In this document: positions 47,340 to 49,295 of the stretch, in pieces | Numbering within the stretch: position 1 is the first letter of the stretch | Layout of the letters: every line of letters begins with the position of its first letter | Assembly (NCBI RefSeq): GCF_000317515.1 | Contig: NC_019738.1 | Span: forward strand, 5,358,001-5,422,000 | Source of the DNA: Allocoleopsis franciscana PCC 7113 | GTDB lineage: Bacteria > Cyanobacteriota > Cyanobacteriia > Cyanobacteriales > Coleofasciculaceae | Direction: 5' to 3' | Length of the DNA stretch: 64,000 bases | Notes under the pieces: model-generated | Database searches by the model: none | The model's input: the letters and a program-made list of their open reading frames with translations, nothing else | Told to the model about the DNA's origin: nothing | Program-made: the position numbers and the translations under genes

Positions 47340-47405
47340 GTTTTTCCTGACGCCCTCATAAGAACTCCGTATCAGGTAATAGAAATCCCGATACGGACAT
47401 CTGCT
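47340..47405 (+). promoter_or_regulatory. Duplicated leader element, copy A (hairpin before the RGSGR peptide)
   Basis: The 69-nt block from GTTTTTCCTGA at 47340 to the ATG at 47406-47408 matches the block at 47861-47929 at 47 of 69 positions without gaps, by hand count. It contains TCCGTATC (47366-47373) and GATACGGA (47390-47397), a perfect 8-bp stem. The only SD-like bases, GGAC at 47395-47398, lie mostly within the right arm, so the hairpin could mask ribosome binding. It could equally be a DNA operator. Confidence 0.65.
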
Positions 47406-47498
47406 ATGAGCATTTACACCTGTATTTCTTACCAACTCATCTCAGTTGACACCCATAAAGACAACAACAAGTCTCCACATCGTGGGAGTGGGCGCTAA
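47406..47498 (+). CDS. PatS-like 30-residue peptide ending in RGSGR
   Basis: ATG 47406, TAA 47496-47498. The peptide starts MSIYTCISYQLISVD and ends KSPHRGSGR-stop. RGSGR at the very C-terminus is the pentapeptide of Anabaena PatS that binds HetR and blocks its DNA binding. The N-terminus is only mildly hydrophobic, unlike PatX. No ATG, GTG or TTG exists upstream in frame before the stop at 47325-47327. hetR itself starts 880 bp downstream on the same strand. The leader is shared with the small ORF at 47927. Sequence and motif are direct observations; expression and HetR binding are inferred. Confidence 0.72.
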   Translation: MSIYTCISYQLISVDTHKDNNKSPHRGSGR

Positions 47499-47860: not shown

Positions 47861-47926
47861 GTTTTTCCTGAGCCTATAGTTTTAAGTCCGTATCAGTAAG
47901 TAGACGCTCTGATACGGACTTGCCCT
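47861..47926 (+). promoter_or_regulatory. Duplicated leader element, copy B (13-bp hairpin)
   Basis: Second copy of the element at 47340. AAGTCCGTATCAG (47884-47896) and CTGATACGGACTT (47909-47921) form a perfect 13-bp stem with a 12-nt loop, ending 5 nt before the ATG at 47927. TCCGTA starts 40 nt before the ATG in both copies; it resembles, with one change, the DIF1 word TCCGGA reported upstream of patX genes. Confidence 0.65.
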
Positions 47927-48124
47927 ATGCGTAGCTCCTCTTTGTTCTTTTTTTTGTTAAGTTTTTTAATAGCTTCACTCTCTTTTGATTCTGGGCGGAT
48001 AGCCTCCGGCTCATCGGCTCTCCTCGAATCAGCCAGTGTCACTCAACTACTAGCGGCTCAAACCCAAACTCACGGAAACCCACGCCCTGAGCCGGGTAGC
48101 AAACGTCGGAGCTTCTACCAATGA
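47927..48124 (+). CDS. Small exported peptide upstream of hetR, PatX-like candidate
   Basis: 65 codons. The N-terminus is a strong signal peptide (SSLFFFLLSFLIASLSF), then a Ser/Ala-rich part with a likely cleavage near LLAAQ, and the tail HGNPRPEPGSKRRSFYQ. PatX proteins are small, have a hydrophobic N-terminus and an RGSGR motif, and co-occur with hetR. Here the motif position would read PGSKR, matching at G, S and the last R only. Gene position (257 bp before hetR, same strand), size, export signal and the shared leader support a PatX relationship; the core motif does not match exactly. A 6-bp AACCGA/TCGGTT hairpin follows the stop. Confidence 0.6.
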   Translation: MRSSSLFFFLLSFLIASLSFDSGRIASGSSALLESASVTQLLAAQTQTHGNPRPEPGSKRRSFYQ

Positions 48125-48306
48125 CAGGAAACCGAGATTCTTCGGTTATTATAAAGTTTCACACCAGAGCTTGATCCCTCGGATTCCCTCTGATGGTGAA
48201 GAAATTCTTCTACTTACCCGATTTCTCTTGAGTTTTCTATAATTAGAGAGAAATTAGCTTTTAACATAACATTAGGGTGCTTTGACTAAGCGCATGTTCT
48301 ACAGTC

Positions 48307-48332: not shown

Positions 48333-49295
<963 letters not shown>

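Follow-up and report, generated by a model that had tools for sequence, protein, structure and literature searches.

Upstream of the only hetR gene of Allocoleopsis franciscana PCC 7113 (7.97 Mb, 9 contigs) two small open reading frames are arranged in tandem. Both are located in the window, by which we mean the whole analysed stretch of 64,000 nucleotides (Table 1). The hetR-proximal frame (ORF B) involves 65 codons (MRSSSLFFFLLSFLIASLSFDSGRIASGSSALLESASVTQLLAAQTQTHGNPRPEPGSKRRSFYQ) followed by a TGA stop, starts with a hydrophobic N-terminus and lies 256 nt upstream of hetR. The hetR-distal frame (ORF A, MSIYTCISYQLISVDTHKDNNKSPHRGSGR) encodes a short peptide of 30 residues, in which HRGSGR is directly followed by the stop codon and which, as judged by hydropathy, has no evident signal peptide. 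An earlier note on this DNA had described a small ORF just before hetR with PGSKR in place of RGSGR, and this description was borne out.

Table 1. Positions of the features in the window; paralogue C is located on contig C1 of the same genome
Feature	Position	Strand	Evidence or remark
TCCTGA, A leader	47345..47350	+	61 nt upstream of ATG, where G181 has DIF1 TCCGGA; role inferred
Inverted repeat, A leader	47367..47396	+	one of just 2 places in the genome
ORF A, hetR-distal PatS-like 30-residue ORF ending exactly HRGSGR	47406..47498	+	21.5 bits, rank 2/730
TCCTGA, B leader	47866..47871	+	61 nt upstream of ATG; role inferred
Inverted repeat, B leader	47884..47921	+	perfect arms of 13 nt separated by 12 nt; second of the 2 places
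ORF B, patX paralogue proximal to hetR with a signal-peptide-like N-terminus; core PGSKR	47927..48124	+	54.0 bits, independent PatX model
ORF B core and tail PGSKRRSFYQ, RGSGR column of PatX	48092..48121	+	HMM alignment
In-frame continuation beyond the ORF B TGA	48125..48154	+	G000-G001 alignment
hetR, PatS/PatX-peptide pocket residues intact	48381..49295	+	NCBIfam NF009718, 563.9 bits (cut-off 489)
Paralogue C, PatX-like, unlinked, PGCGRRD	C1:2607560-2607760	-	NCBIfam PatX, 31 bits (cut-off 30)

We compared the 730 ORFs of the window with a PatX model built from 17 canonical PatX proteins, which included neither A nor B nor C. Here, ORF B ranked first (54.0 bits, E 1.5e-15) and ORF A second (21.5 bits, E 2.2e-5), and the third-ranked ORF reached 6.3 bits. 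When B was shuffled 1000 times with its composition preserved, the highest score was 14.7 bits, so the similarity of B to PatX exceeds what is expected by chance. The alignment extends from the signal region to the final residue of B, so that signal, spacer and tail are all covered, and PGSKR falls on the RGSGR column. Signal peptides were assessed by hydropathy (KD12) and homology, and the KD12 value of the B N-terminus (2.6) is inside the range of single-copy PatX proteins. The family model of NCBIfam (NF047413), which the earlier note had proposed as a check, missed its 30-bit cut-off for both ORFs (18.0 bits for B, 16.9 bits for A), and a Pfam search gave no match for either of them. Compared with PatX (NF047413; PMC7761841, PMC12756182), B is alike in size, signal-like N-terminus, spacer, location before hetR and leader, and it has the RRxF tail of many PatX proteins, but it lacks RG(S/T)GR and scores under the NCBIfam cut-off. 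Judged by these comparisons, ORF B is a PatX homologue and, of two patX copies in tandem, the one nearer to hetR.

For ORF A, the alignment with PatX involves only the part from the spacer to RGSGR, which follows directly after its initial residues, and in other A copies these initial residues match the PatX start (MRIY, MRLY). We therefore read A as a PatX that lacks the signal peptide and has nothing past RGSGR; its KD12 hydropathy is 1.3 versus 2.6 for B. By this alignment A descends from PatX, from which it differs by the putative deletion of the signal peptide. It shares with PatS of heterocystous cyanobacteria the short length, the lack of a signal peptide and the exact RGSGR end, but A is visibly derived from PatX and lies upstream of hetR. 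The group in which A occurs is not known to form heterocysts.

The two frames share their leader, as the earlier note had claimed: TCCTGA is found at position -61 of both. Each leader also has an inverted repeat (CCGTATCAG, 12 nt, C-GATACGG), the end of which lies some 10 nt upstream of the start codon. When we searched the genome (about 8 Mb) for the repeat pattern, we found it at two places only, before A and before B, and the backward control gave none. The leader also occurs at patX of other families, and a stricter pattern is present in 40 of the 388 genomes of the order. TCCTGA may represent an element similar to the DIF1 motif (named in PMC7377430). Both leaders fold well as RNA, but covariation among 21 leaders was weak (47-79 of 500 shuffles reached equal covariation values). 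We therefore regard an RNA hairpin and a DNA operator as equally likely. Between the window genome (G000) and its sister genome (G001), a T-to-C change in the B leader repeat (47884-47921; G001:C11:131690) is matched by A-to-G, so that pairing is kept. The patX leader repeat is also present in family f28 (G103, G087, G119, G135, G174, G207, G224, G046), where the PatX model finds little and where the repeat, at least in G103, is located far from hetR; these repeats may mark diverged PatX genes.

Model searches of the genome detected no canonical exported PatX elsewhere; besides weak matches they returned A, B and C, and at E <=0.5 a model including A and B found these three only. When the DNA was searched with degenerate RGSGR codons, 277 places were obtained versus 350 in the backward control, a result that does not decide the matter. 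The sole other PatX-like ORF found in the genome, paralogue C, reads PGCGR, and the combination that the earlier note had named as speaking against its reading (a canonical RGSGR-bearing PatX elsewhere and no homology of B to PatX) was not what we found. Unlinked paralogues of the C type were observed in six genomes of the family (L024 1477-1701, minus strand, G000:C1; L067; L065; L068; L075; L076), in which PGCGR, RGCGR or RGNGR replaces RG(S/T)GR.

Aligning the tails of small ORFs next to hetR in related strains, another check suggested earlier, revealed the A/B pair upstream of hetR at five loci of the group, and every A copy carries RGSGR. All five A copies count 30 residues from the aligned methionine and end with PHRGSGR, and their remaining residues vary. 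The B cores read PGSKR in the window and in G001, PGSGR in Symplocastrum torsivum (L002), RGARR in Coleofasciculus S288 (G004) and PASPP in G006, where the RRxF motif is gone as well (tail RPASPPRPIY). In G001, TTA replaces the TGA of the window genome and B continues with LQETEILRLL; the Symplocastrum B ends with LQENPFTQL. On the HetR tree the five loci are neither joined nor separated, and the AU test (p 0.27) did not reject a single origin. In sister genomes where only one PatX is present, this protein has RGSGR near the C-terminus together with an altered first site, for instance RGERRRDFFQ in G012. Such two-site PatX proteins (G005, G010, G011, G012, G016, Arthrospira) resemble the pair in that the first site is altered and RGSGR is supplied elsewhere, but there the second RGSGR is part of the same protein, whereas in the A/B pair it resides in a separate gene. 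In Symploca-type genomes (L151, L152, L153, and upstream of hetR at L005, L006 and L010), PatX is long and contains several repeats of the RGSGR type, spaced 63 nt apart.

hetR was present in 236 of 388 genomes, and we surveyed a subset of these loci, namely 114 hetR-upstream loci that were fetched on purpose or were part of earlier ones. Since 20 of the 114 were taken from a genus already showing PatX-like hits, the frequencies are not unbiased. PatX-like ORFs were found at 70 loci (51 single, 19 paired), and at 44 there was none within the stretch scanned. A canonical core was present in all 19 distal copies, in 3 of the 19 proximal copies and in 47 of the 51 single copies, and an exact C-terminal RG(S/T)GR in 10/19, 0/19 and 4/51, respectively; since the 19 pairs share ancestry and were in part selected, the Fisher values for these counts, which ignore kinship, do not test independent events. 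The four single-copy exceptions were G030, G097, G057 and G022, and for the first three of them a canonical relative exists at another place in their genomes. All 19 proximal copies have an open frame, which the scan lists by design, and a signal-like N-terminus (KD12 2.1-2.7). An arginine with R, K or L behind it and F or L two residues further is kept in most of them, though not in G006.

The 14 pairs of a second family all come from a single genus (g13), in which the proximal cores vary widely (RNTQR, RRNKR, RRGER, KGDGR, SGSGR, RGSRR and GKGR, with RGSGR or RGTGR in three). When the distal copy of G328 (MQTYTPIALLTPQKGDLSPERGSGR) was compared with those of G107, G256 and G372, which retain the longer form, one in-frame block of about 100 nt was missing and leader and ends were intact. 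This gap points to a second signal-peptide deletion in a distal patX copy. ERGSGR forms the exact end of the distal copies in G107, G256, G372 and G301. In L011 (Synechococcales), a 38-residue ORF without a clear signal peptide ends with RGSGR 593 nt before hetR and is possibly another A-type peptide.

To compare selection on the copies, we counted synonymous and nonsynonymous changes between G000 and G001 and obtained 13/12 for B, 4/4 for A, 12/20 for C and 34.5/5.5 for hetR. Nonsynonymous changes in B were fewer than in neutral simulations (P 0.0016-0.0082). In residues 41-65, a segment that consists of the tail and part of the spacer and whose boundaries we set ourselves, there were 6 synonymous and 0 nonsynonymous changes (P 0.0002-0.0006), and PGSKRRSFYQ alone involves only 2 synonymous and 0 nonsynonymous ones. 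The shortage was not significant for A (P 0.05-0.11) and weak for C (P 0.04-0.13). By these counts, the B tail is apparently under purifying selection and not in plain decay. Since its protein sequence is kept between the two genomes, "degenerate", as the tail had been called, is a poor word for it. The same counts for residues 41-65 disfavour B as an unselected degenerate remnant.

A different pattern was seen in the proximal copies of G276, G290 and G264 (g13): any two of them are separated by 11-12 nonsynonymous changes in the 13 codons of the core, with 0, 5 and 6 synonymous changes in the whole gene. For this trio, which was picked after the contrast between G276 and G290 had been noticed, the core pN was 0.37-0.40 versus a pS of 0-0.11 (P 9e-7 to 0.008), and pN outside the core was 0.035-0.049. 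At L299, L300 and L301, core codons of the proximal patX outpace synonymous sites, and signal peptide and tail are nearly identical. Among the single copies of G280, G051 and G354 no core excess of that kind was detected. Other proximal pairs gave pN/pS values of about 0.3-0.9, with two at about 1.

The HetR residues reported to hold PatS6 are Arg223, Glu253, Glu254, Asp256, Asp270 and Asp278, and both arginines of PatS6 are described as contacting Glu253, Asp270 and Asp278 (PMC4649674). The HetR of the window has all six. In the other loci of a 27-locus set the pocket is complete, apart from a single Thr at position 254 and a truncated locus in which only Arg223 is covered. We also considered a HetR pocket altered to suit PGSKR, but there were no group-specific HetR columns among the 27 loci. 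This pocket comparison, again proposed in advance, gave no change matching PGSKR. Hence there is no sign of a HetR adapted to PGSKR, and the best ligand candidate of the genome is A.

Taken together, these comparative data make it rather probable that the locus carries a tandem patX pair with divided features, in which A is likely the ligand of HetR, and B would be a PatX paralogue that is exported and acts independently of HetR. An in-frame deletion would have removed the signal peptide of the distal copy, which was truncated to end exactly at HRGSGR, and A would most likely serve as a cytosolic, PatS-like ligand of HetR. In Nostoc, HRGTGR is bound by HetR with a KD of 88 nM (PMC12756182). 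B would have retained the signal-like N-terminus, the spacer and an R-R-x-F-x-Q-like tail and would have lost RGSGR. It is most likely still expressed from the patX leader, exported and presumably processed, would most likely no longer be a good HetR binder and may carry a HetR-independent exported PatX function. For Leptolyngbya BL0902, PatX effects are described as apparently HetR-independent (PMC11298460), and this makes such a role plausible for B. The earlier suggestion of a PatX with changed core, next to which a tandem RGSGR ORF takes over, fits these findings, since B is homologous to PatX (54.0 bits), A bears RGSGR and the HetR pocket is kept. Two findings extend it or speak against it: the tail appears to be under purifying selection and not in plain decay, and the split is seen again at numerous hetR loci of a second family. 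A wider reading, to which we give less credence and which we put forward tentatively, is that tandem patX pairs repeatedly split the precursor. The distal copy would become a PatS-like cytosolic ligand, with the signal deleted at least twice independently, and the proximal copy would be an exported peptide similar to a lineage-specific pheromone with a non-HetR receptor, its core having been exchanged under positive selection and retained thereafter.

Other explanations were weighed against the divided pair. B might be a decaying patX pseudogene, the core of which was free to drift once A supplied RGSGR. The loss of the core in 16 of the 19 proximal copies, the strongly altered tail of G006 B and the TGA that shortens B of G000 relative to G001 are in line with this scenario. 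We consider it unlikely, since all 19 proximal copies (in a scan that lists open frames) combine an open frame with a signal-like N-terminus, residues 41-65 of B changed at synonymous sites only, the core of the G276/G290/G264 trio outpaces synonymous sites while the remainder of the gene hardly changes, and the leader repeat is maintained in G000 and G001 with its matched substitution. It also appears improbable that B is still a HetR ligand, meaning that an exported and processed PGSKR-type peptide binds weakly or in another register and that A and B together tune HetR. PatX-like position, leader and spacer would be explained in this way, and so would the final arginine of the core, which most altered copies keep; but B is missing the first contacting arginine of PatS6, HetR has no matching change and proximal cores range from RNTQR to KGDGR.

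A further scenario regards A as nonfunctional and its RGSGR as a relic, with B and the unlinked C (PGCGR) forming the working PatX pair. In Nostoc, PatX without its signal sequence is reported not to have blocked differentiation (PMC12756182). By analogy, A could be inactive for want of a signal, and this is the strongest objection to A as a functional gene. The short length of A, its lack of an evident signal peptide and the score of C above the NCBIfam PatX cut-off point in the same direction. Unlike that signal-less Nostoc PatX, A ends at the hexapeptide itself, and PatS is thought to be produced and cleaved in the cytoplasm. Moreover, PHRGSGR and the length of 30 residues are identical in all five A copies while other residues vary, the A leader and the HetR pocket are maintained, and the same type of product arose again in G328, so that we consider a relic A very unlikely.

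A literature search covering titles and abstract openings, without Elhai and Khudyakov 2018 (10.1111/mmi.14003), returned no paper naming a tandem or split patX. The association of PatX with HetR has been described as predating heterocysts (PMC7761841). In the divided pair, two features that usually occur in one peptide are distributed between two genes. The RGSGR motif is here naturally separated from the exported part, and this is repeated across genomes, so that the two roles become testable gene by gene. If this interpretation is true, PatS-type regulators could arise from PatX through deletion of the signal peptide.
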